Source: Lachnospiraceae bacterium Zagget2 (GTDB taxonomy: Bacteria; Bacillota; Clostridia; Lachnospirales; Lachnospiraceae). Taken from it: a DNA stretch of 36,294 nt. The notes below the pieces were generated by a model. It did no database searches and was not told where the DNA came from. It saw only the letters and a program-made list of their open reading frames with translations. The stretch is taken from NCBI GenBank assembly GCA_001941045.1, contig MSHD01000007.1, forward strand, positions 99,180 to 135,473. Direction: 5' to 3'. Below, one piece after another: positions 4,173-36,294 of this stretch (position 1 is the first letter of the stretch; every line of letters begins with the position of its first letter). The translations under genes were made by a program, and so were the position numbers.

Positions 4173-4475
4173 ATGGAGAGGAAATCAAGGCGTTACGAGT
4201 TTGAGGGAGTCGTTCTGGATATCCCCCTGCATTACGACAGCCTGGCTGATATGTATATAGAGGAATATCCGGATTTTATTGAGAATCCTGTGTGGACACG
4301 AGACGGGCATCCCGTTATGGCCAGCGTGGAAGACGCCTGTCCTTACTGCGAATGGGATGAACCGGAGCGGTGTATAGACTGCGGTTCCTGCAGGTTCTAC
4401 ACGCCGGCAGCTCCGCACACGTTGATGGGTGTCTGCCGCCACGAAAAGCGCTTATGGGCTGGCAGGCAGAAGTGA
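4173..4475 (+). CDS. Small cysteine-rich protein, possible zinc-binding, first gene of the CIS array
   Basis: About 100 residues, function not recognised. The ATG at 4173 is preferred over the in-frame GTG at 4167 because GGGAGAGG (4160-4167) gives a sensible spacing only to the ATG. The C-terminal half carries six cysteines as CPYC, then CIDCGSC and a final GVC, a spacing suggestive of one or two metal-binding knuckles. The N-terminal half is rich in acidic and aromatic residues. It lies 40 bp before the next gene and shares its transcript. It could be a regulator or a structural accessory. I do not recognise the family. Confidence 0.7.
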   Translation: MERKSRRYEFEGVVLDIPLHYDSLADMYIEEYPDFIENPVWTRDGHPVMASVEDACPYCEWDEPERCIDCGSCRFYTPAAPHTLMGVCRHEKRLWAGRQK

Positions 4476-4515
4476 TTTCTTATAGAGGTGGCGAAACAGG
4501 AGGGGAGGCCATACC

Positions 4516-6327
4516 ATGAACAATACAAAATTATATCCTTTTGAGAGAAATCGTTACTATGCCGGGAAGATGCTCACGTCCGCGGACTTCCAGGCAGAGC
4601 AGACTTATTTCAACAACAAGCGTCGGTTTGTCAACAACCTGATGTATGGTTCGGGTGTGGTCTGCGGCTGTGGCGTATTCAGTCTCGATGATCTGTCGCT
4701 CCTTGTGGAAAGCGGCGTTGCGATTGACGGGCTGGGACGGGAGATTGTTGTGGAGTCTTCCGTGGTGAAAAAGCTCTCTGCGATCGAGGGCTTCGAGAAC
4801 CTGCGGACAGACGAGGCCTGCCTCTGCCTGCGCTACCGGGAGGAGCCGATTCATACGGTCTACACCGTGAATCAGGGAACCGGGGAGGACGGCCGTGAGG
4901 AGTATGAGTACAATCGCATCAGCGAGTCCTATCAGCTGTTTCTGATGGATCGGGAGGATGATGCGGCAGAATATGAGATGGAGAGTGAGTTTTTCACGAG
5001 TCTTACTCTCTTTGAGGATGAGGATTTTCTGGTGAAGCTGTCTATGCCGGCCACGGTCTGCCGCGGAAAGAATGTCCGGCTGGAGTTGATCGTGCAGAAA
5101 CTCTCTTCACAGAACCGGAAGCTCTCCTACCGTGCGGTTCTGCAGACGCCCGTATTTCTCACGTCGGAAGGAACGCATGAACTGTCGGTGGAGATCCGTG
5201 ATGCTTCGCTTGTGGAGGGCGAGACACTGAAAAAAGATTACTGGCTGCATACACAGGAGGCGCCGGTGATTGATACGAGCATTCTGGTGGAGAGCGGAAC
5301 AGCCCGTGTTTCGGTGGATGGCGCGGCGAAGGAAGCCCCTTCCGGCAGTGCACTGAATATCGCGCTCACGGATATGAAACCGGGCGATCTGGTCAGCCAG
5401 GAACTGGGACGTATCAGCCTGGAGATGAAGAGTATGGGCGGCGCGAAGGATTACGTCTGTCTTGCAGATCTGAAGCTGGTTCGCACGGAGAATGCCTATA
5501 TTATAGAAGAGGTTCTGGAAAAGGGGATCAAGAACTATATTATGGCTCCCTCTCAGAGCAGGATGCGCAGTCAGTACATGGAATATTTTTCAAAGGATCC
5601 GGATATTTTCCGCAGCGGAGAGCCGAACCGGCCCGCTGCAGGGGAAACCGGGCCGGCTGCCTGGCAGGGGCGTGCGATCGAGGCAGCATCCGGTGTGCTG
5701 GAGATTCCGCTGGGAGAGAATGCCAGAAGAGGAGACGTTCGCTATTCCGGTGAGATCATGCATGGCCTTGGAAAGGGAAACGTACACGTAGAAATCGGTT
5801 ACGAATATATAGCGGAGGATCCGGCGCTTGGCATCACTTCCAGAAATACAATCTATGGGAATCCGAAGCTGTTTCGCGATGAACAGCTGACCGCTGTGGA
5901 TGTGGAGACGGCTGTGAAGGTCATGAACGACAAGGGAAGCTTTATCGTGGCGGCAAAGCTTCTGGAAAATGTGAATTATCTTGTGCTTACCTATCGCTGG
6001 GTTGCAATTCGTTTTCCGGCGGGGAATGATCTGGATCGAAGCGAAAATTACAGTGACAGGAGCATTTCCGTGGATACGCCGACGGTGGTTATGGGGACGC
6101 GGGAGAATTTTTATTTCCATGTGCGCTACAACAATATGGAGGCCTGCAGCATCGCCTACGAGCTGACAGAGCCCGGAAGCGGCGAGATTACTTCGGACGG
6201 CGTCTACACCTCGCCGGCGAAGGAGGGGGTGTATGAGATCCGCGTCTACTGTGTGGACATGCCGGTGATCTGTACCTATGCCTATGCAATTGTGAAGAAA
6301 ACAGGAGCTGAGACGGAGGAACCGTAA
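4516..6327 (+). CDS. Conserved CIS-associated protein with C-terminal Ig-like domain
   Basis: A 603-residue protein with no signal peptide or membrane segment. The N-terminus has the pattern FERNRYYAGKMLTSADFQAE followed by QTYFNNKRRFVNNL and GSGVVCGCGV. From memory, similar R-N-R-[FY]-x-x-G-K-L-L-x-x-x-D-F openings occur in uncharacterised proteins of Gram-positive contractile injection clusters. The middle is beta-rich. The last about 70 residues (SIAYELTEPGSGEITSDGVY onward) resemble a bacterial Ig-like domain. It has a strong GGAGGGGAGG site. A surface or baseplate accessory role is possible, but the function is unknown. The association with a CIS is well supported by the neighbours. Confidence 0.8.
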   Translation: MNNTKLYPFERNRYYAGKMLTSADFQAEQTYFNNKRRFVNNLMYGSGVVCGCGVFSLDDLSLLVESGVAIDGLGREIVVESSVVKKLSAIEGFENLRTDEACLCLRYREEPIHTVYTVNQGTGEDGREEYEYNRISESYQLFLMDREDDAAEYEMESEFFTSLTLFEDEDFLVKLSMPATVCRGKNVRLELIVQKLSSQNRKLSYRAVLQTPVFLTSEGTHELSVEIRDASLVEGETLKKDYWLHTQEAPVIDTSILVESGTARVSVDGAAKEAPSGSALNIALTDMKPGDLVSQELGRISLEMKSMGGAKDYVCLADLKLVRTENAYIIEEVLEKGIKNYIMAPSQSRMRSQYMEYFSKDPDIFRSGEPNRPAAGETGPAAWQGRAIEAASGVLEIPLGENARRGDVRYSGEIMHGLGKGNVHVEIGYEYIAEDPALGITSRNTIYGNPKLFRDEQLTAVDVETAVKVMNDKGSFIVAAKLLENVNYLVLTYRWVAIRFPAGNDLDRSENYSDRSISVDTPTVVMGTRENFYFHVRYNNMEACSIAYELTEPGSGEITSDGVYTSPAKEGVYEIRVYCVDMPVICTYAYAIVKKTGAETEEP

Positions 6328-6330
6328 GCC

Positions 6331-7182
6331 GTGGATAAGATTTATCAGTCGCAGCGGATGAGACTCGCCTGCGTTCGGACTGTAAAATCGAATAGTGTCA
6401 ATGATATTCTGATATGCCGCGACCTGAATTCTTCCGCAGGAGCGCTGTATACGGTGCTTGCCATCAAGGATCATGCTGTGGTGCGGCGTTGCCTGGAGGC
6501 TTTCCGGAATGCCGGTATCTCAGGAGAGAGAGCCTGCGTGGAAAGTTTCTCTGATCAGGGTGTGTTCTGTATGGTATTTGTCTACAGGCAGGAACGGCCG
6601 TTGAAGGATTTTTATACGGGCAGTTTCTACTCCCTTACGGAGTGTGAGACGATCTGCAGCAGCGTCATCATCGCCTGTATGACGGCCGGACTGCCTTATC
6701 CGCTGCTTTATCTCGCCCTGCGGCAGGGGCAGCTGAATCTGGCGAAGGATCACACCGTCTATCTCGGGTGGCAGATTGACTTAAGCGAGCTGGACTCCGG
6801 CAGGACGGAGCGGGACTGCGCAGTGGAATGCGCGCAGATCCTAAGGGAGCTTCTGAGCGCGAAGGCGGCGCAAAAGGCTTACAGCTATCGTCTTCTGGAG
6901 AAAAAGATCGGCAGGAAGAGCTACGACTCGTTCACGGAATTATACAAGGATATTCAGATCGCGGCTGCGCCGAAAAAAAAGCGTGGCATCCGAAAGAGAC
7001 TGATGGCCTGGATTGCCCGCAGACAGGATATGATCTTCCGCATCCTGCTGTTTGTCTGCACAGCGCTGGTGCTGATCGTTCTCGCGTCTTTGTTGTGTCA
7101 GCTGATTTTCGGGGATGTGCCCTGGCTGCGATTATTATTCAATGGATTTAAGACGATCGGTACGGAATCGTTGACCGGATAA
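6331..7182 (+). CDS. C-tail-anchored membrane protein with pseudokinase-like cytoplasmic domain
   Basis: A 283-residue protein starting at GTG 6331, with GGAGGA 11 bp upstream and a 3-bp gap after the preceding gene. Residues about 1-215 are soluble; a Lys/Arg-rich stretch (PKKKRGIRKRLMAWIARR) is followed by one hydrophobic helix, ILLFVCTALVLIVLASLLCQ, near residue 235-258 and a short outside tail. Parts of the soluble domain look like an eroded protein kinase fold: VLAIKDHAVVRRCLEAF could be the VAIK lysine strand and LNLAKDHTVYLGWQIDLSEL the catalytic-loop to DFG region, but HRD, the catalytic Asp and DFG are absent. The membrane anchor is secure. The pseudokinase idea is my inference and is weak without structure prediction. 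Confidence 0.75.
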   Translation: MDKIYQSQRMRLACVRTVKSNSVNDILICRDLNSSAGALYTVLAIKDHAVVRRCLEAFRNAGISGERACVESFSDQGVFCMVFVYRQERPLKDFYTGSFYSLTECETICSSVIIACMTAGLPYPLLYLALRQGQLNLAKDHTVYLGWQIDLSELDSGRTERDCAVECAQILRELLSAKAAQKAYSYRLLEKKIGRKSYDSFTELYKDIQIAAAPKKKRGIRKRLMAWIARRQDMIFRILLFVCTALVLIVLASLLCQLIFGDVPWLRLLFNGFKTIGTESLTG

Positions 7183-7194
7183 AGGGAGGTGCTT

Positions 7195-9447
7195 ATGAGG
7201 AGGAGAATACCACTTCTGATCGGTTTTCTCTGGCTGTTTGCTGTGATCGGGCTTGCTGCCATCTGTGGAGGAGACTGGCCCGGTGAGCTGCCGCGCTCCG
7301 TATATCTGAGCGACGCCCTTGAGAAGGGGAGTGAGTTTGAAGCTCTGTGTTATTCGGAAGGACTGTATGCCGTGCTGACGCCGTCCTCATCGGAGGACAG
7401 GGAGGGTCGGAGAATTGTAAGTTTAAGTGAGACCGGCGAGGCCCTGGCCGTAACCCCGGTTCTGGAGCTGGAGAGCGGGGGAAGCCTGAGCGCTCTAAGT
7501 GTAACTCCGGAGGGCTTTTATCTTACGGTGATCCTGGACGGAGGAGAGAGTGCGGGTTTTTATTTTGTGGAGAGCGAAAGCCTTTCCGCGGAAAATCTGT
7601 CCGCGGAGGAGCCGCCGGAGCCTCTTTCCCTTGCACTGGCGAGCTCCGTAAAAGCGGAATATGGGCGCAGGATCAACTGGGCCGGTTATGCGGACGGAAC
7701 GCTCCTCACCTGGAAAGACGATGGAACCGGGGCAGTGTATTACGAGCAGGCCGTGTCTGATGCGGCCGATTGTGAGCAGATGCTCATGGACATGGGGCAG
7801 GAGGCAAATATTCGCCAGCACAGCACGATCTGTTATCTTGTACTTCTGTTTGCCGGTTGGGTCATATGGTTCCTGGTTGTGAGGCTGCTGCGGAACCGAA
7901 GTTATACGGTATATGCGATTGTGCTCGTCGAGGCGCTGCTTCTCGTCATTACGGTGACCGGTGTGATGCTGGCTACGCGCAGCAGTCAGAACACGAGCGA
8001 GTCGGAGACAGAGCGCTACAGCCGTTATTATATGAAGTCGCTGCTTGCAGATATGAAGGCGCTGCAGCCGCTGGAGGATTTTGAGGCGGAGGCCTTCTAT
8101 CAGAGTGATACCTATGAGGAGCTTTTCAGCCTTCTGTCAGGATTTATTTCCGATGAGGGAACGGCGGATGTCTTTGCGGATATCTGTATCCTGAGGCCGG
8201 AGGACGGCTGCATTCTGGTGAGTGCCAGCGGGAAGAACGGAGCGCCGCTCTCAACGGTTTATGGACAGGACGCGGAGCTCCTGGAGATGGATTTCACGGC
8301 TGACAAAGTGACGGTATATACACTGGCGGCGATTCGCGGTGAGGATGATGGGAGTCTCTTTTCGGAGGCGGCAAATCGCGGATACCTGATCTTTGCGGGT
8401 ATTCTGTTCCTGACAGTGAGCGCAGTGTGTGTGGCGCTTCTGCTGATCCGGGGCAGAGAGCTTAAGAGGCTCTCAGCTGCCATGTTGCAGGTGTCGGCCG
8501 GACAGGAGGCATCCGCGGGTGGGAGAATCCGCAGCCGCGATACGGCGGTCATGTGGAACAGCCTCATGGAGATTCAGAAGAAGATTCACAGGATCAACTA
8601 TACGCGCTATCGGATCCTTGAGTCCTGCTACCGCTTTGCGCCGAAGAATATAGAAAAGCTGTTCGGACGTGATTCGATCACAGAGGTCGCGGGCGGAGAT
8701 ACGGTCCGATTGCATGGGATGGTGGCTTTTATCACAACCGCTGAGCCGTCTGGTATGGAGGAAATGACAGCGGAGCAGATGAATCAGTTTGTCACTCTGG
8801 TGGAACAGCATCAGGAAGAAAACGGCGGATATTTTGTGTCCGGGAACGCAGATCTGACGAGTCTGAAGCTGTTGTTTCCAGAGGGAAATGGGCGAAGTGT
8901 TGAATTTGGTATTTCCTTTCTGCGGGAATTCTATGAGGGGTCAGTGCTTCAGAGCCTGCAGGCGGGGATTCTGATCCACTGTTCGGACTTCCTTTATGGA
9001 GTGGCCGGAAATGAGCGGCAGAGCTTTCCGTTCCTGCTCTCGGAGGAAAAGGCAGAGCTTGAGCGCTTCGCAGCATGGTTTCGGGGAATGGATCTTCGGC
9101 TGGTTATTACGGCAGAGGTGCTGGAGCAGGAGAAGCCGCAGGGAACACATCGCTATCTGGGCTATCTTTTCCTCGACAGGGTCGGAAAGCGGCTTGATCT
9201 CTATGAGGTGCTCGATGCCTGCCCGCAGGCGGAAAGGCGGCTGAAGACGGATACGGCGGAAAAGTTCGGAAAAGCGCTGGAATTGTTTTACCAGCATGAT
9301 TTCTATCTGGCGCGCGGCGGTTTTTCAGACATCATGAAAGCCAATCCTGATGACCGCATGGCCAGGTGGTACCTGTTTACCTGCGAAAAATATCTGAATC
9401 AGTCCTGGTGTGAGGGCGATATCTGCAGACTGCGTTACGATCATTGA
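7195..9447 (+). CDS. Membrane receptor with HAMP-like linker and degenerate class III nucleotide cyclase-like domain
   Basis: About 750 residues. The ATG at 7195 is chosen because AAAGGGAGG ends at 7189. Topology read from hydrophobicity: helix 1 near residues 5-24, outside domain about 25-210, helices 2 and 3 near 212-231 and 238-258, a second outside domain about 260-395, helix 4 near 397-418, then a HAMP-like linker. Residues about 495-670 follow the layout of class III adenylate/guanylate cyclases (VAFITTAEPS, AGILIHCSDFLYGVAGNERQ), but the metal-binding Asp of the first motif is replaced (VAFITT) and the G-D motif is altered. The end (LYEVLDACPQAERRLK, then LARGGFSDIMKANPDDRMA) matches the tail seen after such cyclase domains. 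It is probably a non-catalytic envelope sensor for the CIS. Confidence 0.8.
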   Translation: MRRRIPLLIGFLWLFAVIGLAAICGGDWPGELPRSVYLSDALEKGSEFEALCYSEGLYAVLTPSSSEDREGRRIVSLSETGEALAVTPVLELESGGSLSALSVTPEGFYLTVILDGGESAGFYFVESESLSAENLSAEEPPEPLSLALASSVKAEYGRRINWAGYADGTLLTWKDDGTGAVYYEQAVSDAADCEQMLMDMGQEANIRQHSTICYLVLLFAGWVIWFLVVRLLRNRSYTVYAIVLVEALLLVITVTGVMLATRSSQNTSESETERYSRYYMKSLLADMKALQPLEDFEAEAFYQSDTYEELFSLLSGFISDEGTADVFADICILRPEDGCILVSASGKNGAPLSTVYGQDAELLEMDFTADKVTVYTLAAIRGEDDGSLFSEAANRGYLIFAGILFLTVSAVCVALLLIRGRELKRLSAAMLQVSAGQEASAGGRIRSRDTAVMWNSLMEIQKKIHRINYTRYRILESCYRFAPKNIEKLFGRDSITEVAGGDTVRLHGMVAFITTAEPSGMEEMTAEQMNQFVTLVEQHQEENGGYFVSGNADLTSLKLLFPEGNGRSVEFGISFLREFYEGSVLQSLQAGILIHCSDFLYGVAGNERQSFPFLLSEEKAELERFAAWFRGMDLRLVITAEVLEQEKPQGTHRYLGYLFLDRVGKRLDLYEVLDACPQAERRLKTDTAEKFGKALELFYQHDFYLARGGFSDIMKANPDDRMARWYLFTCEKYLNQSWCEGDICRLRYDH

Positions 9448-9494
9448 CAGAATATAGTCAGTATAAGATTACCTGAGAAAGGAGGAGTGCGGAT

Positions 9495-10691
9495 ATGGGA
9501 ACGAATCTGTTCAGTACCCTGATCTCAACGATCAAGTCGAAGATTACGCCGCTGGTCACAAAGTTCAAGAACTGGACCAGCTGGAGCTTTATCCGTACCA
9601 AACTGATCTCCTCCATCCGGGATTTCTTTTCGAAGATCCTGGACATCAGGCCCAGGCACAAGAAGGACTATTATGAGGTCTTCGGCTGGCTTGTGAGCCG
9701 CCGTCTGGCGCTCGCGCTGGTGATTGTCGCGGGGGTGCTCAGCGTTTACTATCTGTTTTGCGTGCGCAGTGTTCTGCCTTCTTCCGGTTCGGATACGGTG
9801 AAAACATATTCCTATGATTCTCTGCTGCTGCGTTTTACGAGCGGCACGGTACAGATCACGGCGAAGAGCGGTTACCTGGCCTACGAGGGAGAGGTGGCGT
9901 CCGGCGCGGTCACCGGCTACGGCACTCTGTACAATGCCGAGGGGGTCGTTGTCTATCAGGGAAATTTTGAAAACAACGAGTATCAGGGAACGGGTACTCG
10001 GTACTACGATGACGGAACCATGATGTACACGGGAGAATTTGAGGCAAATGCGTTCAGCGGGACGGGAAAGCTGTACCGCGAGAATGGAACGATGGAGTAC
10101 GAGGGGGATTTCGCGCTTGGCATGAAGGATGGCTCCGGTCAGCTCTATGATATAAGCGGGAATCTGGTCTATGAGGGAAACTTCAGTAAGGACAGTATTG
10201 TCTACAGCGAGATTCTGGGACAGAAGGCCTCCGAAGTGGCGGAGATCTATTCCGGAAGTCGGACGGTGTATGAGCAGGATGACAGTTACGCTGTGGTACT
10301 GGATGATATTGACGTGGTTTATGCCGATAACGGGGAGAGCGCGGCGCTGGATGAGGAGATCACGATCGGACAGGTGATTGTGTTAAGCAATGAATTTTCC
10401 ACGGGCAGCACGAAGCTCAGCACAAGGGAGGAACTTGAAAATTATTTTGGGGCGGAGTTGCTCATACGGACAGAGGAGCTCACGCTGGCGGAGGCGGTGG
10501 CCTTTGCCCGTGTTGATTCGGAGGATACGGAACTGGTGCTCTCACAGGAATATGACGACTACTATACGGTGGAGGAATATGGCGGAAGCGCCAGGGCTTT
10601 TACAGGTACCCGGGACGGCTTAAGCTACACCTTTGTATCCTCCGGGACGGACGGTACGTTTTCCTTCTATATTATTCAGTATCAGGAGTAA
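9495..10691 (+). CDS. Single-pass membrane protein with extracytoplasmic MORN-type repeats
   Basis: A 398-residue protein starting 8 bp after a perfect AAAGGAGGAG site. Residues 1-68 are basic and amphipathic and probably cytoplasmic. One helix (LALALVIVAGVLSVYYLFCV, about 71-90) spans the membrane. Residues about 129-235 hold four to five MORN-like repeats with the pattern Y-x-G-x-[FV]-x-x-x-x-x-x-G-x-G-x-[LR]-Y (for example YQGNFENNEYQGTGTRYY and YTGEFEANAFSGTGKLY). The last about 160 residues are an acidic alpha/beta domain of unknown type. MORN repeats in other proteins form extended beta scaffolds that bind partners or membranes. It follows the receptor gene by 47 bp. An envelope-anchoring role for the injection machine is inference. 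Confidence 0.83.
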   Translation: MGTNLFSTLISTIKSKITPLVTKFKNWTSWSFIRTKLISSIRDFFSKILDIRPRHKKDYYEVFGWLVSRRLALALVIVAGVLSVYYLFCVRSVLPSSGSDTVKTYSYDSLLLRFTSGTVQITAKSGYLAYEGEVASGAVTGYGTLYNAEGVVVYQGNFENNEYQGTGTRYYDDGTMMYTGEFEANAFSGTGKLYRENGTMEYEGDFALGMKDGSGQLYDISGNLVYEGNFSKDSIVYSEILGQKASEVAEIYSGSRTVYEQDDSYAVVLDDIDVVYADNGESAALDEEITIGQVIVLSNEFSTGSTKLSTREELENYFGAELLIRTEELTLAEAVAFARVDSEDTELVLSQEYDDYYTVEEYGGSARAFTGTRDGLSYTFVSSGTDGTFSFYIIQYQE

Positions 10692-10707
10692 GGGAAAGGC
10701 GGAACAG

Positions 10708-12537
10708 ATGAGAAAAAGAAATCGAACAGCAGCCATTCTTGCAGCGGTTTTGTTTCTCGAAGGGACGGGCATTACGGCTCTGGCCGCGGGGAGCACGACC
10801 CTGAAGCTCGAGACTGCGGTGGAGCAGGCCTTTACGAACAGTTCGGAGTATACGGAGCTGAATAATGAGCTGTCCATGAAGCAGGTGGATCTGGCACAGG
10901 CGGTTCTGGCGGCCAGCCCATATGCAGAGGAAGATTCCGGGGAGGAGACGGCTGCAGAAGAGACGGCGGTGGAGGACGACACGGCAGCGGAAGAGGCCGG
11001 GGAAGAAGAGACTTACCTGTGGTCGCCCTTTATGGAGGCGGTGCCCGCGGAGGGGCAGAGCCTATCAGAACTCTACAGCATCCTGATCGCGCCGCTGCTG
11101 GCGCAGATGGACGTCGAGACCGCCGAGGCGGCGCTGGAGAAAGAGCGGCTGTCGGTGCAGGAGGAGATCGCAGGGCTGTATGCGGATATCGTCACGCTGC
11201 AGCAGAAGATAGAGCTGGAGGAGGAGCGGCTTGCAGAGGAGAAAACGTCTCTGACGAAGATCAAGGCGCTGCTCAGGACCGGGCAGGCCACGCAGGACGA
11301 TGTGGACGCACAGGAGGATGAGGTCGGGTCATGTGAAGAGAGTCTGAGCGAAAAGCAGGAAGAACTTGAGGAGGCGAAGGCGGAGCTCTCGGAAGCCATG
11401 GGCGTAGAGCTGTCCGAGAATGTCAGCTTTGCAGAGCTGGAGGTGGAGAGCGAGCTCTGGGAGGGAAGACTCGGGGAGCTGATCGCGGGCACGCTGGAAA
11501 ACAGCAGCTCGTATCTCGCGTCCTGCGCGAGCGCGCGGAATATGCTGTGGGCCTTCTGGAAGGAATATACGGCGCGCTCTGAGAATTATCAGGTGCCGGA
11601 CAATATTTTACAGTATATGTTAAGAGCGGTCGCCGGATGGGCGATCGACACGGAGGAGTTTCAGGAGGAGTATGACGCCTACGCGGAAGCGCGGGCCGCG
11701 GCCCTTGCACAGCCGGTGGCGGATGACGACGGCGCATATTCGCTGTATGACGACGTGCTGAAATACCAGAACCTGGTGATCGATATGGACAGTCAGGAGG
11801 AATCACTGACTGAGCGTGTGGAAGAAAGCTATGAGAATCTGCTGGACCGGAAGGAACGGATTGAGGAGATTCAGGAAGAACTGGAGGCGCTTGAAAAGAA
11901 ACAGAAGGTTTACCGGGTGCGCTACCGCATCGGCGAGCTCTCCAGGGAGGAGTATGATGCGCTGACAGACGAGTATGAAGAGCTGGAGATGGAACTGCTC
12001 GACGCGCAGGGCGAATATTTCAAAGCGTATTACGCGCTCGACAGTGTTACCGGAGGGTATCTTCAGGAGCTCACAGAGGAGATCGGGAACGATTCGGCCC
12101 GGACTTCCGGCAAGGAGTCTGAGAGTAGCTATGTCAGCTCCGGGGATTCTGCAGAAAGCGATTCGAAAGGCGTATCTGACACTGCCTCTGTGACGGCTTC
12201 CTCTGCTGATGCAGAGGAGGCAGAGGTTGTTTACTACATAAAATCGCACTCGGCCGAGGAGGAATTTTCCTTTGGGGTATCTGTCCCCGGAGCTTACTCC
12301 GAGGAGATTGCGTATTACGAGCTCTGGTGCGGGAACCTGCAGGTGGGGGAGCGCACGGCGACCACAGAGGAGATTCGCCACTGGCGGCTGCTCGCGTGGA
12401 GGATGTCCGATGTGAAGGTCTGTTTCTATGATGCAGACGGGGCATTTCTGGGAGAGTGCACGTTTGACCCGACAGAGCCGATCGGTATCGTCACGACAGC
12501 GCCCTACGCCGGGCAGACGGACACGACCGGGAATTAA
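10708..12537 (+). CDS. Secreted TolC-like coiled-coil protein
   Basis: The ATG at 10708 is used although the frame is open further upstream. It follows a GGAAAGGCGG-type site and opens with a signal peptide (MRKRNRTAAILAAVLFLEGT, cleavage near ALA-AG at about residue 26). The mature part begins TTLKLETAVEQAFTNSSEYT, like the first helix of TolC-family proteins, and residues about 130-480 are mostly Glu-rich heptads in two long coiled-coil blocks. The last about 90 residues form a compact domain after a Ser/Asp-rich linker. A Gram-positive cell has no outer membrane for a TolC channel, so the helical fold has probably been reused as an extracellular scaffold. It is the last of four consecutive envelope genes before the CIS structural genes. 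Confidence 0.75.
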   Translation: MRKRNRTAAILAAVLFLEGTGITALAAGSTTLKLETAVEQAFTNSSEYTELNNELSMKQVDLAQAVLAASPYAEEDSGEETAAEETAVEDDTAAEEAGEEETYLWSPFMEAVPAEGQSLSELYSILIAPLLAQMDVETAEAALEKERLSVQEEIAGLYADIVTLQQKIELEEERLAEEKTSLTKIKALLRTGQATQDDVDAQEDEVGSCEESLSEKQEELEEAKAELSEAMGVELSENVSFAELEVESELWEGRLGELIAGTLENSSSYLASCASARNMLWAFWKEYTARSENYQVPDNILQYMLRAVAGWAIDTEEFQEEYDAYAEARAAALAQPVADDDGAYSLYDDVLKYQNLVIDMDSQEESLTERVEESYENLLDRKERIEEIQEELEALEKKQKVYRVRYRIGELSREEYDALTDEYEELEMELLDAQGEYFKAYYALDSVTGGYLQELTEEIGNDSARTSGKESESSYVSSGDSAESDSKGVSDTASVTASSADAEEAEVVYYIKSHSAEEEFSFGVSVPGAYSEEIAYYELWCGNLQVGERTATTEEIRHWRLLAWRMSDVKVCFYDADGAFLGECTFDPTEPIGIVTTAPYAGQTDTTGN

Positions 12538-12550
12538 AAGGAGGACTGAT

Positions 12551-13147
12551 ATGGCAGATTATCCGATTATTGCAGATGTGAGCGCGTATATCGTGCGGAC
12601 ACTCCGCAGCAAGATGTGCCCGGAGCCCATACCGTCTCCGAATAATATTGAGATTTCATCTCCCGCGGATCAGGACGTGGATTACATTCTCGGACTGTAC
12701 CTCTACGATATCCGCGAGGAGAGCGACGTGACGCAGCAACCCTATATCCAGAAGGGACGCGTCCAGATAAAAAAACCGCCAAGGCCCTATGGTCTCTACT
12801 ATATGGTCTTTATCAACGGCTCCTCCCAGATGGGACTCAAGGCGCCGGATATACAGAAAATCATCGGAAGGGTGGCACAGATTGTGAATGACAACAGTTC
12901 CGTCCTCCCGAACCAGCTGCAGTCCTGGCTGGATACCCAGGAACCTCCGATTGTACTGTCTCAGGCGAAGATAAGTCTGGAGGAGAAGGTGAGGGTGTGG
13001 CAGGCGATTAACAAGCCCTATCAGATCAGCCTGTTCTACAAGGCGGCGCCCGTATTTTTATCCAGCGAGATTGTCATCGACACCCCCCGTGTCGTGGATG
13101 CGACATTTGGACTGCATATTACCGGGGAGGAAGGAGGAGAGGGATAA
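12551..13147 (+). CDS. DUF4255 (Pvc16/Afp16-like) tail terminator/cap protein
   Basis: A 198-residue protein starting at ATG 12551 after an AAAAGGAGG site; the frame is open upstream but this start matches both family and ribosome site. It begins MADYPIIADVSAYIVRTLRS and contains DQDVDYILGLYLYDIREE and RPYGLYYMVF, typical of the DUF4255/Pvc16 N-terminal family. In PVC and Afp particles this protein caps tube and sheath at the end distal to the baseplate and fixes particle length. In those clusters it is the last gene; here it is the first structural gene, 4 bp before the next one. The family call is secure. Confidence 0.9.
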   Translation: MADYPIIADVSAYIVRTLRSKMCPEPIPSPNNIEISSPADQDVDYILGLYLYDIREESDVTQQPYIQKGRVQIKKPPRPYGLYYMVFINGSSQMGLKAPDIQKIIGRVAQIVNDNSSVLPNQLQSWLDTQEPPIVLSQAKISLEEKVRVWQAINKPYQISLFYKAAPVFLSSEIVIDTPRVVDATFGLHITGEEGGEG

Positions 13148-20953: not shown

Positions 20954-20965
20954 ATGGATTCATGA
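20954..20965 (+). promoter_or_regulatory. Three-codon mini-ORF overlapping the next start codon
   Basis: After the site GAAAGGA (20944-20950) the first ATG (20954) reads ATG GAT TCA TGA. Its stop overlaps the start of the next gene (ATG 20962-20964) as ATGA. Translation of the downstream gene may occur by reinitiation or by direct use of the ribosome site at 11-nt spacing. Confidence 0.35.
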
Positions 20966-28102: not shown

Positions 28103-28114
28103 GGAGGAGGCAGC

Positions 28115-30208: not shown

Positions 30209-30221
30209 GGGAGGAGAGACG

Positions 30222-31328
30222 ATGGCGGACAGAACGACATACAGTATAAGAAAAAACCGCTTTGAAAGCGGCTTCCATCCCGGATTTGTGGTAGAGAGAG
30301 ACGGGGCTTTACGTGCCTGCCCGAATGCGGCATCCCATTATCTCTATCTGAAGGCGATTGACAGTGGGCAGGCGGACTCTGAGTGGGGAAGACTGTCCCT
30401 GGATATCCGGCGTCCCGAGGACATGATCTGTTATATCCGCGTGGCGGCACTTAATGAGGATTCCTTCTACCGGGAGGGAAAGCCCGTGCGGATCGAGAAT
30501 TTCCTCTGCAATGCGGCCGAAGCGAACAGCATAAAGAAGGAATTTTTCAGCAGGATCGAGGCGCTGCGTTTTGTAAACCGGGAGGATATGCTGCTCTACA
30601 GCCTGAAGGGCAGATATCTCTATCTGATGCTTGAGATTGTCGGGGAGGGAAGCTGCGAGATCGGCGGCCTGCGCATTGATGCGCAGGGGGACAATTTCAT
30701 GTATACCTTTCCTGCCGTCTATCAGGAGAGGAACAGTTTTTTTCATCGCTGGCTCTCTGTCTTTTCGAGTCTGTACAATGATTTTGACGGAGAGATCGAC
30801 CGCCTGCCCGCACTGCTGGATCTGGACAGCTGTCCGCCGGAATATCTGCCCATATATGCTTCCTGGCTTGGTGTGGATGTGGGAAATGATTTCCTGGATG
30901 AGGCGATCTTACGGCCGCTCGTAAAAGAAGCCTACGCGTTGAACCGGATGAAGGGGACGAAGGCGGCGCTTGAGCGCGTGGCCCGGATCGTACTCGGTGA
31001 GAAGGTGCAGGTGCTTGAGCGCAATGTGATGGCGGATTATATCGGGCCGGAGCAGATGGCAGAGTTTGAGCGGCTCTATGGGAACAGTGTGCACGATGTG
31101 ACGATTCTCGTGAAAAAGCCCCTTTCTGAGCTCACAAAGGCCCGGCTGCTGTTTTTGCTGAACCAGTTTAAGCCCGCGCGGGCGCGTCTGCATATCATCA
31201 GCGTACAGCGGGAGGGCGTCCTCGACGATTATGCTTATCTCGATATGGACGTGAGGATCGCCGGACAGAAGAGAGGAACGCTGGACGAGAGTCAGGTGCT
31301 GGACGGCGCCGTCCGGCTGGAAGGATAG
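30222..31328 (+). CDS. Tail protein I-like baseplate protein (TIGR02242-type C-terminal domain)
   Basis: A 368-residue protein. Residues about 165-270 carry the tail-protein pattern: YTFPAVYQERNSFFHRWLSV, DGEIDRLPALLDLDSCPPEY, LPIYASWLGVDVG, and AYALNRMKGTKAALERVARI, where L-P-x-x-[FY]-x-x-x-x-F-L-x-R and the R-G-T-like step (here MKGT) are family marks. The first about 150 residues are a beta-rich domain. In phage P2 protein I completes the wedge around J. Afp/PVC clusters place the fibre gene after the J genes; here no fibre follows, so this is the last clear baseplate gene. It has a GGGAGGAGAG site. Confidence 0.87.
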   Translation: MADRTTYSIRKNRFESGFHPGFVVERDGALRACPNAASHYLYLKAIDSGQADSEWGRLSLDIRRPEDMICYIRVAALNEDSFYREGKPVRIENFLCNAAEANSIKKEFFSRIEALRFVNREDMLLYSLKGRYLYLMLEIVGEGSCEIGGLRIDAQGDNFMYTFPAVYQERNSFFHRWLSVFSSLYNDFDGEIDRLPALLDLDSCPPEYLPIYASWLGVDVGNDFLDEAILRPLVKEAYALNRMKGTKAALERVARIVLGEKVQVLERNVMADYIGPEQMAEFERLYGNSVHDVTILVKKPLSELTKARLLFLLNQFKPARARLHIISVQREGVLDDYAYLDMDVRIAGQKRGTLDESQVLDGAVRLEG

Positions 31329-31353
31329 AAAGAGAACAGGAGGATAAATCAGA

Positions 31354-31653
31354 ATGACAATTTCAGAGACAAGACAGGCAGATGTGGTTCAGCTGAGCGT
31401 GGAAGGCAGGGTGGATACAAACACAAGCCCGCAGCTTCAGAAGAGCATACTCCAGGCATTTCAGAAAGGGAATAAAGTGGTTCTTGACCTGGAGAAGGTG
31501 GATTATGTGTCCAGTTCGGGACTGCGTGCGCTGCTGATCGGTCAGAAGACCGCGAATTCCAAGGGCGGAAGCATGAAGCTGGTTCATGTGTGCAGCGCCG
31601 TCATGAAGGTGTTCGATATGACAGGCTTTTCCAAAATGCTGACGATCGAGTAG
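31354..31653 (+). CDS. STAS-domain anti-sigma factor antagonist-like protein (SpoIIAA/RsbV type)
   Basis: A 99-residue single STAS domain, the usual length. LSVEGRVDTNTSPQLQKSIL is the N-terminal strand-helix, and VVLDLEKVDYVSSSGLRALL carries the S-S-G-L motif whose serine (S54 or S55) is phosphorylated by an RsbW/SpoIIAB-type kinase in relatives. It ends FDMTGFSKMLTIE, also typical. The site is AGGAGGA. A matching kinase is two genes downstream (32312-32752), so a partner switch is encoded inside the injection-system array. No sigma factor gene is seen nearby, so the switch may act on a protein of the machine or on a distant sigma factor. Confidence 0.93.
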   Translation: MTISETRQADVVQLSVEGRVDTNTSPQLQKSILQAFQKGNKVVLDLEKVDYVSSSGLRALLIGQKTANSKGGSMKLVHVCSAVMKVFDMTGFSKMLTIE

Positions 31654-31659
31654 CGCATC

Positions 31660-32310
31660 ATGATCCGTTTTGAACATGTGCAGAAGCGGTATGATGAGAG
31701 TGCGGCGCCGGTTTTCGGCGATTTCTGTGAGACTGTCCGTCAGGGGGAGTTCGTACTGCTGACCGGGGAAAGCGGCGCGGGAAAGAGTACCCTGCTGCGT
31801 CTTATTCTGAGGGAAACGCCCTTGACGGGTGGCCGTATCCTTGTGGCAGGGCAGGATATCGGAAAAATCCGCGGAAAGGATATTCCGCTTTATCGCAGGA
31901 AGATCGGGGAGATTTTTCAGGAGACGCCGCTGATTGCTGAGGAAAATGTTTATGAAAATGTAGAGCTGGCAAGATTGATTGCCGGGGGAAAGAGGAAGGA
32001 TAACCGGATGGTGATCACCTCGCTTTTCCGGCTGCTCGGCATCAGTCACCTGCACCGAAGCTATCCGGCGCAGCTATCCGGAGGGGAACGGCAGAGGGTG
32101 TGCCTTGCCAGGGCGCTGGCGAACTATCCGGCGCTGTTGCTGGCCGATGAGCCCACAGGAAATCTGTCACCGTCGGAGTCAAAGGAGATCATGGGTCTCT
32201 TTGAGCTGATTCACCGGCAGGGAATCACCGTGGTAGCGGCCACGCATGACCGGGAGAACGCGGCGGGACTTGCATACAGAGAGATTGCTTTGAAAAGGAA
32301 GGGAGAATGA
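31660..32310 (+). CDS. FtsE/LolD-like ABC transporter ATPase without partner permease
   Basis: A 216-residue ABC ATPase. Walker A is GESGAGKS (residues 36-43), the Q-loop is EIFQETPLI, the signature is LSGGERQ (139-145), Walker B is ALLLADEP (158-165), and the switch His is in AATHDRE. Length and sequence are closest to FtsE and LolD/MacB-type ATPases, which work with a membrane permease such as FtsX. No such permease is encoded in the window. The start has almost no ribosome site (ATG 31660, 6 bp after the STAS stop), so translation is probably coupled. All catalytic residues are intact. It might use an outside FtsX-like partner or one of the membrane proteins at 6331-10691; both are inference. 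Confidence 0.9.
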   Translation: MIRFEHVQKRYDESAAPVFGDFCETVRQGEFVLLTGESGAGKSTLLRLILRETPLTGGRILVAGQDIGKIRGKDIPLYRRKIGEIFQETPLIAEENVYENVELARLIAGGKRKDNRMVITSLFRLLGISHLHRSYPAQLSGGERQRVCLARALANYPALLLADEPTGNLSPSESKEIMGLFELIHRQGITVVAATHDRENAAGLAYREIALKRKGE

Positions 32311-32311
32311 T

Positions 32312-32752
32312 ATGGAAAGGATGGTGGACCTGAAGCTTCAGGCCAGTAACGACACGCTTTATACGGTGCTGGACGCCATAGAGGCGCATCTTACGAAATG
32401 CGGCTGCCCGAAATCCGTGCAGACGGAGATTCTGGTAGCTGTAGAAGAGCTCTATGTGAATATTGCCAGCTATGCTTACGGGGACAAAAAAGGCGAGGCA
32501 GCCGTACAGATGGATGTCCTTGGTGATCCGGGACGCTGCAGGGTGACACTCATCGATCATGGCATGCCCTACAATCCTCTGGAAAAGGAAGATCCCGACA
32601 TCACGCTCTCCGCGGAGGAGCGGGGCATCGGCGGTCTGGGCATCTATATGGTAAAGCAGACGATGGACCACGTGGAATATCGTTATGAGAACGGCTGCAA
32701 CATTCTGACGATTGAGAAGGGTATCGGACCGGAGGAGAACGCATGCGGGTGA
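32312..32752 (+). CDS. ATP-binding anti-sigma/regulatory kinase (RsbW/SpoIIAB-like, HATPase_c_2)
   Basis: A 146-residue GHKL-type kinase domain. The N box is ILVAVEELYVNIASYAYG, the G1 box LIDHGMPYNPLEKEDPD, and the G2 box ERGIGGLGIYMVKQTMDHVE, then EYRYENGCNILTIEK. These are the ATP-binding boxes of anti-sigma kinases that phosphorylate STAS antagonists. It starts 2 bp after the ABC ATPase gene with GGGAGA. Its likely substrate is the STAS protein at 31354-31653. Whether it binds a sigma factor or another target cannot be told from sequence. Confidence 0.93.
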   Translation: MERMVDLKLQASNDTLYTVLDAIEAHLTKCGCPKSVQTEILVAVEELYVNIASYAYGDKKGEAAVQMDVLGDPGRCRVTLIDHGMPYNPLEKEDPDITLSAEERGIGGLGIYMVKQTMDHVEYRYENGCNILTIEKGIGPEENACG

Positions 32753-32967
32753 CCGACAGGCTGATCGAGGATGCGAAGAAGCGGGCCAGGAAGCCGGAGC
32801 CGGAAGATGAGGAGATGGACGAGTACATGGAGCGCAGGCGTCAGTCTTATCTGAATGAAAAGAAAGCGGTGTTTGACGACGATACGTTCGGTGGCTTTAA
32901 CACGCAGAAGAGCGTATTTGACCGCACAGCGATTTTTCGTACGGGTGAGAGGTACGATGGAAAGTAA
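32743..32967 (+). CDS. Small charged protein of unknown function
   Basis: A 74-residue protein overlapping the kinase gene by 10 bp, with GGAGGAG before its ATG. The first half is highly charged and helical (DRLIEDAKKRARKPEPEDEE). The second half holds two similar short pieces, KKAVFDDDTFGG and QKSVFDRTAIF, separated by 10 residues, which look like short linear binding motifs. It ends 12 bp before the AAA+ ATPase gene. A peptide adaptor between the regulatory module and the ATPase or sheath is possible. I do not recognise the family. Confidence 0.68.
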   Translation: MRVTDRLIEDAKKRARKPEPEDEEMDEYMERRRQSYLNEKKAVFDDDTFGGFNTQKSVFDRTAIFRTGERYDGK

Positions 32968-32979
32968 AGGAGAGACAGG

Positions 32980-35301
32980 ATGGACGTTGGCAGAATTTTT
33001 GCGGGGGAAGATCGGGAACAGCCCTTTGCGAGCTATGAGGAATATATGGAATATCTGTTCGTCTGCGTCAACGAGGCGATGGACCGTTATCTTTCCGGGC
33101 TGAAACAGGTCTACGCGACGGGACAGGGCGGCTATAAGAACGTCCTGTATCCGGATCTCGAGATCGCCCATGACACCTGTCGCAACAAGCTGGAACAGTT
33201 CGCGTACCAGGCCGCGCAGAACGGAGCGGAAGAGCCGGCGCAGAGGGAATCCGAAGAGCCGGACCGGGGTGAGGAGGATCCGGATCTGCTTGACCTCTTT
33301 GCGGACTTTGCGGACAGCAGCGACTCTGCAGCTTTTGCCGGGAGCGGAAGGTCAGAGGAGATGGCGGAGGAGATGATCGCGTACATAAACAGGCGGGCAG
33401 AGCATTCTGTCGAAGCGGGAATCTCCCTGCCTTTTCACGATATCTGTCGTCGTCTGGAATTTGAGAATTTCACCGTTTTCTGCCTGGCGGCGAGTATCCT
33501 CGCCTCCACGCAGACCGACTATGCGGGCGTCTTCCAGGTGATCAATGAAAATGGAAATCTCTCCGCGCCGACGATCGAATCTGCGGCGAAGCTCTACTAC
33601 GGAGGCCGCTTTTCCATCACCGGCGCCTACGGCGACATGTCGGTCTGCCTGGAACAGCTCCTGCCGCTTTTAGATCTGCGCGTGCAGGGCAGCATGCCCT
33701 TCTCGACTGTCGTATCTCCGGACAAACGGGTGATCGATTTCCTTTTCGGAAAGCATCCCCTGCGCCTGGATGAAAACTATATCCGCTTTTTCCAGATGCT
33801 CACCGGGGAGGGGGAGCTCGATCCCATCATGGCAAACGAGGGTGTGCTCGAGGCCATGGAGATCTCCTATGGAGAGGGCGTGCGGATCTTCTCTTACTAC
33901 GGGGACGAGGGCAGCGGCAGAAAATTTTTTATTAAACATTTCTGTGCGCGACACGGCCTGCAGGCGGTGTCGGTCAACTGTAAGAAGCTCTTCGATTATG
34001 ATTTCTCCTTTGTGGACAAGGCGCTTTGGGCGGTGACGCGCGAGTGCATCCTGATCGGGGCCTGCTGCTGTCTCAGTGATCTGAGTTATCGTGAGGAGGA
34101 GAAGGAGAAATTTTTCGGCTACATGGATCTGGCCTTTTCGAAGCTCACGCGGCACGGTCTTCTGGTCTTCGCCCTGAGTAAGGAGAAGCTCTCCATGAAG
34201 GACATGACGAAGGAGGAGTACACAGAGCTCGAACTTCCGACGCCCTCCAATCAGGAGCGCGAGGACTGCTGGAACTATTACGCGAAGAACTATGCGCTGG
34301 CGCAGGATGTAGATCTCTCCGAGATGGCGACCAAGTTTCTCTTTACGCCGGGAAAGATCCGCTCCGCGCTCCATCAGGCGAGGAGCTACGCCACCATGGA
34401 CAAGAGCATCGAGATTCCCCGGGCGACGCTCTTCCGCGGCTGCAACAACCAGATGAGCTCGGAGCTGACGCAGAAGGCGACGAGGGTCAAGGCGAACTTC
34501 GGTTTCGAGGACATCGTCATGAACCGGGATCAGCGGGAGACGCTGGAGCACGCCATCGACCAGATGACCTACCGCAAGCAGGTCTACGACAACTGGAACT
34601 ACACGAAGAAATACCCCTACGGGCGTGGCCTGTCGATCCTGCTCTTCGGCGCGCCCGGCACCGGCAAATCCATGTGCGCCCAGGTCATCGCCCACGAGCT
34701 GAACCTGGAGCTCTACCGCGTGGATCTGTCGAAGGTGATCGATAAATACGTCGGCGAGACCGAAAAGTCGATCTCGATGATCTTCCGGGAGGCGAAGAAG
34801 TGCAACGTCGTCCTCTTCTTCGACGAGTGCGACACCCTCTTTGCCAAGCGCTCCGACGACGGCGGCAGCAATCAGTCTTCGAACAATAACAAGACGGCGC
34901 TGCTGCTGCAGGAGGTGGAGGCTTACGACGGCGTCTCGGTGCTGGCGACGAACTACAAGCACAATATTGACCCGGCCTTCTTCCGGCGTATGAAATACAT
35001 CGTCGAGTTCCAGTTCCCGGACGCGGACACGCGCGAGATGCTCTGGAAGACCACGATCCCGAAGGGGACGCCGCTCGGCGAGGATGTGGACATCCGCTTT
35101 CTCGCGGAGAAGTTCGAGTTCGTCGGCGGTAATATCAAGAACTGCATCCTCAATGCGGCCTTCCTGGCCGCCGCGGACGGAGACGGACAGGAGGTCTGTA
35201 TGAAACATTATCTGCAGGCGATCCGCTATGAATTTGTGAAGACAGGGAAGGTATTTACCAGATCGGATTTTGAGCCCTACGCCTCTCTGATCGGGCTGTA
35301 G
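32980..35301 (+). CDS. CIS-associated AAA+ ATPase (Pvc15/Afp15-like)
   Basis: A 773-residue protein with a C-terminal AAA+ domain. Walker A is GAPGTGKS (557-564), Walker B VVLFFDECD (610-618), sensor 1 ATN (656-658), and an arginine-finger region DPAFFRRMKY follows. The N-terminal about 500 residues include a charged linker near 80-125 and a second, eroded P-loop-like segment (IFSYYGDEGSGRKFFIKHFC, about 305-325) without the full Walker A, so this may be a degenerate second ATPase module. In Afp/PVC this ATPase is essential for particle assembly or cargo loading. The site is AAAGGAG. The AAA+ domain is more G+C-rich than the N-terminal half. Confidence 0.92.
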   Translation: MDVGRIFAGEDREQPFASYEEYMEYLFVCVNEAMDRYLSGLKQVYATGQGGYKNVLYPDLEIAHDTCRNKLEQFAYQAAQNGAEEPAQRESEEPDRGEEDPDLLDLFADFADSSDSAAFAGSGRSEEMAEEMIAYINRRAEHSVEAGISLPFHDICRRLEFENFTVFCLAASILASTQTDYAGVFQVINENGNLSAPTIESAAKLYYGGRFSITGAYGDMSVCLEQLLPLLDLRVQGSMPFSTVVSPDKRVIDFLFGKHPLRLDENYIRFFQMLTGEGELDPIMANEGVLEAMEISYGEGVRIFSYYGDEGSGRKFFIKHFCARHGLQAVSVNCKKLFDYDFSFVDKALWAVTRECILIGACCCLSDLSYREEEKEKFFGYMDLAFSKLTRHGLLVFALSKEKLSMKDMTKEEYTELELPTPSNQEREDCWNYYAKNYALAQDVDLSEMATKFLFTPGKIRSALHQARSYATMDKSIEIPRATLFRGCNNQMSSELTQKATRVKANFGFEDIVMNRDQRETLEHAIDQMTYRKQVYDNWNYTKKYPYGRGLSILLFGAPGTGKSMCAQVIAHELNLELYRVDLSKVIDKYVGETEKSISMIFREAKKCNVVLFFDECDTLFAKRSDDGGSNQSSNNNKTALLLQEVEAYDGVSVLATNYKHNIDPAFFRRMKYIVEFQFPDADTREMLWKTTIPKGTPLGEDVDIRFLAEKFEFVGGNIKNCILNAAFLAAADGDGQEVCMKHYLQAIRYEFVKTGKVFTRSDFEPYASLIGL

Positions 35302-35317
35302 AGAAAAGGAGGAGCGC

Positions 35318-36294
35318 ATGCCGGAAAGTTATAACAAAGACGCGTATAAGAAGGTCTACCAGCATCCTCAGTGGAGACAGACCGCGGATGTATATGAGGC
35401 AGGTTTCGCGCAGAACCTGCACCGATCTCCCGTCGTGCAGGACGCCGCGAGGGGAGCGCTGGTCAGACTCAGTAACATGCTGAACGCCTACTACGGGATG
35501 CAGGACAAGAGATGGGAATTCTATGCACAGACCGGACGTCGTGAAATGGGAACCCGGGAGGAGACGGATGCGCTGCGGGAGGTGGCCACCTCCATCTCGA
35601 AGACGAAGCTGCAGGTCACCCGGACGCTTCAGGAAGCACTGCTGCCGCAGCAGGCGGACGCGGCTGCCGGGGTCAACGAGGGTCTTCTGGAGGATGTCAT
35701 CAACGGGGAAGGCAGCGTGGATGATCAGATGTCCCTTTTGTATAATGCGGTATCCAATACAGGAGGAACGGATGAACAGCAGGCTTCCCGCAGACGGACG
35801 CTGCAAAATATGATGCGCGGCATGGGTTCCGACAAAGAGTCCGGGCGAGTGAACCGGATCGCGGAGTTCGCGGGCGACGAGTTTCTGAAGAAGGGATCCA
35901 GGGCTCTCTATGATCAGAGCTTTGGCAGGCAGGGGAAAAAGTTAAGATCCTTTTCCGGTCCGAGGCAGTTTGAAAAGGCGGCGCTGGAGAGGGGAAAAAG
36001 AAAAGAGGAGAAAGAAAGGGAAGGCCAGAATAAGGGAAATCTTTTTTCCAGGGCTGTTTCTGCAGTCCGCAGAAGGCTGGGTGGACGGGAGAGATCTCCG
36101 CAGGAGGAACCCGTGACTGCCCAGGGCATGCTTCGAAGCGCCGGCGCCTCCACCACGACGCTGCGGCTGCTCGGAGCTTATCGCATGCTGGGCGCGGGAA
36201 AACGGGACCTTCTCTATTTCCGGCTGGCGCTGATCGCATGGATGGTGCAGGGAAGGCAGAACTCGATGTATGAGATTATGAGAGCTTCCCACAG
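35318..36294 (+). CDS. Unrecognised protein following the CIS ATPase, 3'-truncated by the window
   Basis: An open frame of 325 codons runs from ATG 35318 (site AAAAGGAGGAG) off the right edge, so the end is missing. It begins ESYNKDAYKKVYQHPQWRQT and has an Ala/Gln-rich helical N-terminus. A strongly basic, probably disordered stretch (GRQGKKLRSFSG, KAALERGKRKEEKEREG) lies around residues 205-265. The visible end is an ordered helix pair (GAYRMLGAGKRDLLYFRLAL, IAWMVQGRQNSMYEI). There is no signal peptide or membrane segment. Genes after the ATPase in such clusters are often cargo or effectors, and a basic N-terminal leader plus a C-terminal domain fits, but no toxin family can be named. The frame is continuous with good codon use, so it is a real gene. 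Confidence 0.8.
   Translation, partial: MPESYNKDAYKKVYQHPQWRQTADVYEAGFAQNLHRSPVVQDAARGALVRLSNMLNAYYGMQDKRWEFYAQTGRREMGTREETDALREVATSISKTKLQVTRTLQEALLPQQADAAAGVNEGLLEDVINGEGSVDDQMSLLYNAVSNTGGTDEQQASRRRTLQNMMRGMGSDKESGRVNRIAEFAGDEFLKKGSRALYDQSFGRQGKKLRSFSGPRQFEKAALERGKRKEEKEREGQNKGNLFSRAVSAVRRRLGGRERSPQEEPVTAQGMLRSAGASTTTLRLLGAYRMLGAGKRDLLYFRLALIAWMVQGRQNSMYEIMRASH

Follow-up and report, generated by a model that had tools for sequence, protein, structure and literature searches.

A contractile injection system kept together with envelope and signalling genes in a single-membrane Lachnospiraceae bacterium

How could a bacterium with a single membrane make use of a contractile injection system (CIS) across its wall? 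In a passage of Casu et al., firing a contractile weapon through thick peptidoglycan is called difficult to conceptualize (PMC10066040). We have approached this question in Lachnospiraceae bacterium Zagget2 (GCA_001941045.1), on a stretch of 36,294 nucleotides of contig MSHD01000007.1 (C7:99180-135473; hereafter the window), in which a CIS gene array is accompanied by envelope and signalling genes. The genome comprises 3.34 Mb (98.4% complete, 3.35% contamination), and a search of it revealed no 16S gene. Because a constant set of genes for membrane, cell-surface and signalling proteins accompanies the CIS genes, the array is a strong candidate for a contractile weapon working through the wall of a single-membrane bacterium. 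The novelty lies in the fixed partnership of a CIS with a secreted protein of predicted TolC fold, membrane proteins and a partner switch in such a host.

Judged from the predicted proteins, there is no reasonable doubt that the array has the anatomy of a CIS. One cluster contains the genes for sheath, tube, gp25, J, spike, cap and AAA+, and curated profile cut-offs were exceeded for Pvc16_N, DUF4280, the sheath, gp19, two CIS_tube, Phage_base_V, gp25, one Baseplate_J, Tail_P2_I and AAA (Table 1). An earlier sequence-only reading of the window had announced a complete CIS, and the core families that it named were recovered in this way, with weaker matches below cut-off for the other J-type protein and the hub; a chaperone-like protein (120 aa) and a DUF6760 protein are additions to its list. 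The 1015-aa J-type protein also matched a chain of the solved structure 9gtp (E 3e-15). Chance origin of the array is excluded by the E-values together with a gene order that is kept in relatives. The array had further been described as unbroken, and all genes from 4167 to 35301 are indeed on the plus strand, but it does not end in the window and continues to about C7:147461. Upstream, a terminator-like hairpin forms the boundary towards a LuxR-type gene.

When compared with solved chains, the sheath was closest to three of CIS type (9ezm, E 9e-106; 8bky, E 3e-95; 8bl4, E 1e-92), followed by Pvc2 (4.5e-48), pyocin (1.5e-14) and T4 gp18 (about 1e-8); 8bky and 8bl4 are presumably of Streptomyces origin. 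The best phage record showed 30% identity over 63%, and no close sheath relatives were found in a scan of IMG/VR viral contigs. A contractile phage tail was rejected on these grounds and on that of the sheath tree described below, and the expectation that the sheath would not belong with ordinary prophages was thereby upheld. No capsid, terminase or portal was found among the scanned array proteins, and Terminase_6N was not found in the genome, other terminase families not being searched. Flanking phage genes had been named as a finding that would overturn the CIS identity, and this applies in part, as a siphophage-like prophage lies at C7 about 59000-87000, its terminase and portal called by eye and its right end roughly 16-17 kb upstream of the CIS. 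Its tail genes, however, look non-contractile, and host genes lie in between (an ABC/MacB-type pair, an M3 peptidase, a nitroreductase and a VanW protein among 10 open reading frames (ORFs) scanned, and tRNA-Pro). Anti-phage defence was likewise rejected, as all matches among the eight proteins scanned were of AAA type, apart from a weak one obtained with the TolC-fold protein.

The linkage between the CIS and its accompanying genes was followed in relatives, of which the best 80 of 238 by sheath were kept (identity 99-71%); their record titles are mostly Lachnospiraceae, and many name rumen or gut samples. Flanks of at least 9 kb were available for 50 loci upstream and 42 downstream. The cap, the 255-aa gene and the PAAR gene stand ahead of the sheath in the same order in 50/50 upstream loci, where the TolC-fold gene was found in 47, the sensor and MORN genes in 40 each and one or more large secreted proteins in 45, counts on which the 10 kb flank sets a ceiling; the profiles used here, as in the outlier, ABC-HATPase fusion and cargo-region comparisons, were built from the window and the same relatives, so that matches in those are partly by construction. 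Loci were stitched for 18 of 20 relative genomes (labelled G001 and so on). G014 was left out because the contig obtained did not match its sheath locus, and G016 because it lacked a CIS-type AAA match; the locus of G005 contains an unread gap, and those of G009 and G019 stop at contig ends. With the window's own proteins as queries, the TolC-fold gene was present in 18/18 stitched loci, the 603-aa, kinase-fold, sensor and MORN genes in 17/18 each (not found in G019), STAS after Tail_I in 17/18 (not G015), ABC adjoining STAS in 12/18, and AAA in 18/18, although upstream in G006. The proposal that the CIS is tied to envelope and signalling genes thus holds in both sets of loci.

The same partners reappear further out. 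The closer outliers G105, G124 and G169 carry 603-aa, kinase-fold, MORN, TolC-fold and large secreted genes (3/3), and the outlying Clostridia loci G646, G126, G298, G343 and G262 carry a sensor-like gene (5/5) and MORN (4/5), with a TolC-family gene in one (G646), followed by a 1136-aa ORF; in G515 none of the sensor-like, MORN and TolC-family genes was found. On a sheath tree of 27 rows (a second version with four rows dropped, an earlier tree having been distorted by phage rows and a misframed plasmid row) the 11 rows of the envelope clade were supported at 100/100 and the 16 Clostridia rows at 85/99; the deeper order is not settled by the tree. One row of the envelope clade, G066, is a lone CIS sheath (C1 near 3754920-3756599), with no other core CIS gene recognised in 40 kb; its genome, a single contig of 6.9 Mb with 8% contamination, gave only a distant ABC match besides.

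Among the envelope proteins, the 603-aa protein is matched by NCBIfam NF053767 over residues 8-152 only (E 3.4e-26), giving it a Cis13-like N-terminus, and its homologue follows Tail_I in 5/5 of the outlying Clostridia loci of the same sheath group. The statement of the sequence-only reading that no fibre gene is visible is therefore doubtful. The 283-aa protein probably has a kinase fold. A PDB profile search with its alignment gave weak matches at best, the top one being a protein kinase (E 0.05), and no HRD/DFG-type catalytic motifs of an active kinase were visible by eye in the alignment. An identity as YukC/EssB of type VII secretion, suggested by topology, was set aside; there is no YukC in the genome, and EssB was absent among the matches listed, where a missing row is not proof. 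The C-terminal part of the 752-aa sensor candidate resembles a degenerate class III cyclase in a motif, with no profile match. PDB profile searches with the sensor and 603-aa alignments gave weak matches at best, and that with alignment A2 gave matches over a low-complexity stretch only.

The next protein is predicted to be secreted, and in a monomer model its helical barrel adopts the TolC fold, identified by fold search, the sequence profile against the PDB giving weak matches only. The model shows no strand of three or more residues in the helical part, and residues 69-100 fall below 50 in predicted local distance difference test (pLDDT) score. Between this gene and the cap, 15/18 stitched loci have one or two additional genes for large proteins (about 890-1920 aa) whose N-termini look signal-peptide- or anchor-like. 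A diderm host was rejected, as Omp85 had no match in the genome while the control matched in 7/14 named genomes. In the Lachnospiraceae, which are regarded as having a single membrane, 34/299 genomes encode TolC-family proteins; most of these measure about 380-460 aa, and tandem copies are frequent. In G646 (L156:8853-12260) the very large ORF after the TolC-family gene has no Pfam match and an N-terminus that by eye is like that of a secreted partner. About 23 kb after the sheath, G002 (L117) and G008 (L123) encode proteins of 1255 and 2286 aa, by eye with a signal-like N-terminus and a C-terminal membrane anchor.

A STAS-kinase-ABC module had been reported downstream of the CIS core. It is present, all three profiles (STAS, ABC, HATPase_c_2) exceeding curated cut-offs, but the signalling part is larger, as a second HATPase (23 bits, below the cut-off of 27) and a SpoIIE phosphatase lie outside the window. 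STAS with a conserved serine, HATPase_c_2 kinase and SpoIIE phosphatase together make up a partner-switching module; the SS-x-GL motif is invariant in 17 aligned STAS sequences, and we take its second serine to be the phospho-acceptor. An RsbW-like gene lies near the array in 10/18 relatives and a kinase-like gene of 285-325 aa in 10/18 (longer by ORF call in two, on the opposite strand in three; one was profiled as HATPase_c and the rest assigned by similarity), so that one or the other is present in 17/18, G009 being the exception. Besides the window's genome, some relatives (G001, G005, G006, G020) have a SpoIIE phosphatase downstream. In G006 and G020, a MATE transporter and a HATPase domain are joined in a single protein (581 and about 600 aa) about 22-24 kb after the sheath; in the window's genome they are encoded by two adjacent genes. 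The ABC ATPase is FtsE-like, a true FtsE being rejected on its score, and FtsX-family permeases sit elsewhere in the genome, outside the array. It is fused to the RsbW-like HATPase in G004 (L119:7533-8717; confirmed by Pfam) and G010 (L125:11251-12429). Just upstream of the array (window 1381-2751) is a cell wall hydrolase with a PcsB-type coiled coil; PcsB is a partner of FtsEX in other Firmicutes.

The AAA+ ATPase has homologues of 62-91% identity in 18/20 relatives and of 81% in a fragment of one more; among the 20 searched it was not found in G016. Gene content around and after it differs between genomes. The partial gene that leaves the window has homologues of 747-1546 aa in 5/18 relatives and no match in family scans; its readable C-terminal part recalls, by eye, an ADP-ribosyltransferase, a likeness rather than a test. 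Beyond it the same contig encodes a second AAA ATPase, a GNAT protein, an 880-aa protein, a GH3-like enzyme and a MATE transporter ahead of the second HATPase and the phosphatase. Within the core, length varies in the 940-aa tape-measure or cargo candidate (homologues of 621-1399 aa), for which profile scans found no family match, and in the second tube-like protein (264-1002 aa across relatives).

Table 1. Features of the array in window coordinates, with strand and the match or observation behind each assignment.
Feature	Position	Strand	Basis and remarks
Terminator-like hairpin	4018..4061	+	Between LuxR-type gene and array; consensus scan only
102-aa Cys-rich protein	4167..4475	+	Kept in close relatives G011-G013; Fer4_2 below cut-off
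603-aa protein, Cis13-like N-terminus, candidate fibre-like/anchor subunit	4516..6327	+	NF053767 below cut-off
283-aa protein, probable kinase fold, one strong C-terminal membrane helix (238-256)	6331..7182	+	
752-aa membrane protein, four hydrophobic segments, sensor candidate	7189..9447	+	Hydropathy; no Pfam match
MORN-repeat protein, one membrane helix (66-84)	9495..10691	+	PF02493 E 7.6e-9
Secreted protein of predicted TolC fold with C-terminal beta domain	10708..12537	+	Queries started at 10717
Cap (Pvc16_N/DUF4255)	12551..13147	+	PF14065 E 2.3e-28; ORF opens at 12428, start picked by homology
255-aa conserved protein	13151..13918	+	Ahead of sheath in 50/50 loci
PAAR-like tip (DUF4280)	13903..14286	+	PF14107 E 1.1e-26
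Sheath	14321..16018	+	PF17482 and PF04984; solved relatives; ORF opens at 14249, queries started at 14327
Inner tube (gp19-like)	16059..16511	+	PF06841 E 4.4e-24
Tail assembly chaperone-like, 120 aa	16693..17055	+	phrog_508 E 3.9e-6
DUF6760 small protein	17052..17255 (inside ORF 16998-17255)	+	PF20546 E 1.8e-16, above cut-off
Second tube-like protein with C-terminal extension	17270..18079	+	phrog_4542 E 1.9e-4
940-aa low-complexity protein, tape-measure/cargo candidate	18101..20923	+	Position and variable length
CIS_tube (LysM-type) adaptor 1	20962..21801	+	PF19266 E 1.1e-13
CIS_tube (LysM-type) adaptor 2	21821..22654	+	PF19266 E 5.1e-15
Hub, 374 aa	22671..23795	+	NF033848 (VgrG-related) E 8e-12, 44/275 bits, below cut-off; phrog_52
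Spike (gpV OB domain)	23812..24624	+	PF04717 E 2e-20
gp25-like sheath initiator	24646..25089	+	PF04965 E 3.5e-19
Baseplate J-type protein 1, 1015 aa	25055..28102	+	TIGR02243 E 6.5e-21, 74.5/155.8 bits, below cut-off
Baseplate J-type protein 2, 697 aa	28115..30208	+	PF04865 E 4.8e-10
Tail_P2_I-like baseplate protein	30222..31328	+	PF09684 E 2.1e-11
STAS (RsbV/SpoIIAA-like)	31354..31653	+	PF01740 E 5e-18
FtsE-like ABC ATPase	31660..32310	+	PF00005; TIGR02673 213 bits, cut-off 265; no permease in array
RsbW/SpoIIAB-like HATPase (HATPase_c_2)	32312..32752	+	PF13581 E 5.7e-25
74-aa ORF	32743..32967	+	
CIS-linked AAA+ ATPase	32980..35301	+	PF00004 E 5.4e-27
Partial gene leaving window, cargo/effector candidate	35318..36294	+	Homologues in relatives

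That this chromosomal CIS of a single-membrane gut bacterium is built as an envelope-docked device is, in our estimate, an even call, and docking with outward firing is the reading that we favour, unproven as it is. The data show the gene complement and its conservation, and the folds are predictions; docking, a wall passage, gating and the choice of target, and with them the idea in the sequence-only reading of a membrane-tied machine fired by signals, are inferences. Sheath, tube, baseplate and cap would assemble in the cytoplasm with the help of the AAA+ protein, and the Cis13-like 603-aa subunit, together with the kinase-fold, four-helix sensor and MORN proteins, would hold the baseplate at the membrane. 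A scaffold or passage across the wall might then be provided by the secreted TolC-fold protein, joined in most relatives by one or two very large partners that are likewise secreted. The partner switch of SpoIIE phosphatase, RsbW-like kinase and STAS, with the FtsE-like ATPase, may set the time of assembly or firing, and the variable genes that surround and follow the AAA ATPase would supply the cargo. A fuller version would make the system the Gram-positive equivalent of the type VI secretion system (T6SS), widespread among Lachnospiraceae of gut and rumen: it would be permanently docked in a single-membrane envelope, fire outwards through a wall passage formed by a TolC-derived protein that has lost its outer-membrane barrel, and be switched by an RsbW-FtsE-STAS relay. 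This we put forward tentatively, as distinctly less probable than docking as such.

Several observations weigh against docking and outward firing. The 603-aa protein has no membrane helix predicted from hydropathy, its Cis13 match falls under the family cut-off (92 vs 370 bits), and the structure model of the kinase-fold protein is of modest quality. PF02321 occurs in 34/299 Lachnospiraceae genomes, 24 of these without a CIS sheath, and because TolC-family proteins occur in the family without this CIS, a TolC fold alone proves no CIS role. The TolC-fold gene is absent from the 40 kb read in 4/5 outlying Clostridia loci, and the large secreted partner is absent in the window's own clade (window, G011-G013). 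The CIS tube is presumably wider than the lumen of a TolC trimer, and no sigma factor as target of the STAS switch was seen among the scanned genes. Finally, the related particles of Streptomyces, as described in a passage of PMC10066040, drift unattached in the cytoplasm and act on the cell that produces them.

The last observation leads to the rival that survives best, which we nevertheless consider rather unlikely: free particles, as in Streptomyces, would dock briefly when membrane proteins sense envelope stress and would lyse the producer, with the TolC-fold and other secreted proteins serving as stress sensors or wall scaffolds. The sheath similarity to 8bky and 8bl4 after 9ezm points in this direction, and so do partner-switch modules, which we take to be typical stress switches. 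The same passage of Casu et al. (PMC10066040) finds a T6SS mode through thick peptidoglycan hard to conceive. On the other hand, for a self-lysis device the outlay on a secreted TolC-fold protein and on secreted partners of about 890-1920 aa would be high. Release of an extracellular CIS (eCIS) in the Afp/PVC mode, the 603-aa protein being a receptor-binding fibre and the envelope genes serving release, appears improbable to us. It would agree with the Cis13-like N-terminus, with the place of this gene after Tail_I in outlying relatives, and with the LuxR-type gene nearby, as GerE-domain regulators are named as eCIS regulators in an excerpt of PMC8213781. The cell wall hydrolase also lies just upstream, beyond the terminator-like hairpin, but no lysis gene was recognised in the scanned array proteins. 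Moreover, we know of no eCIS role for the conserved membrane proteins or the TolC-fold protein. That the envelope and signalling genes are an unrelated operon, co-transcribed by happenstance, is very improbable: TolC-family proteins elsewhere in the family and the missing TolC gene in 4/5 outlying Clostridia loci would fit, but gene order is kept in 50/50 loci, changes in order have not separated the Cis13-like, MORN and sensor genes from the CIS (G298, G126), and the clade with the module stands at 100/100 on the sheath tree.

Counting the window's genome, 27/299 sampled Lachnospiraceae genera have the sheath (E up to 1e-40); at class level it was found in 20/391 genomes (E up to 1e-30), some of them from more distant lineages. 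This fills an apparent gap in surveys of gut CISs: eCIS are depleted from mammal-associated and digestive-tract bacteria according to a passage of Geller et al. (PMC8213781), and in an excerpt of a 2025 metagenome survey the human-gut CISs are mostly of Bacteroidota, with a single one in Proteobacteria (PMC12210884). A description of this Lachnospiraceae CIS was not found among the literature matches listed, subscription papers being mostly outside them and survey supplementary tables possibly listing loci; the only paper found that names both CIS and Lachnospiraceae, a single-cell study in cockroach, speaks in the part seen of a T6SS family common to its taxa (PMC10266427). Because the CIS is tied to conserved wall and membrane proteins, the question of firing through the wall is now testable in isolates such as Butyrivibrio sp. 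AE2015 and Lachnospiraceae XBB2008.

The array can be placed beside several known systems. With the T6SS it shares the idea of an envelope-docked contractile machine, but no TssJ/L/M or ClpV family was found in the profile scans, which for these families were confined to array proteins. The haloarchaeal CIS of T6SS mode resembles it, in a passage of PMC11566945, by a one-membrane cell and a linked membrane protein upstream of the core, and differs by an archaeal S-layer envelope and by one six-helix protein in place of a set with a secreted TolC-fold part. The thylakoid-anchored CIS of Anabaena has a Cis13-like N-terminus on a candidate anchor subunit in common with the array; in contrast, the host studied here has no thylakoids, its 603-aa protein lacks a predicted membrane helix, and the envelope partners are different. 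The cytoplasmic CIS of Streptomyces (subtype IId) supplies the nearest solved sheaths after 9ezm (8bky and 8bl4), but the sheath tree does not settle whether the sheaths group together. It is like the array in a J protein matching 9gtp, the S. coelicolor baseplate according to an excerpt of PMC12237407, and in a DUF6760 gene, a long gene in the tape-measure position and a single-membrane host. In one Streptomyces plasmid locus, however, TolC, MORN, STAS, ABC and HATPase are not annotated, and the ATPase gene stands before the sheath instead of last. STAS, HATPase kinase and SpoIIE phosphatase recall the partner switches of BtrUVW and SigB type. The Btr system of Bordetella reportedly controls a secretion machine. 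Unlike these switches, the array has an FtsE-like ATPase in between, fused to the kinase in two relatives.

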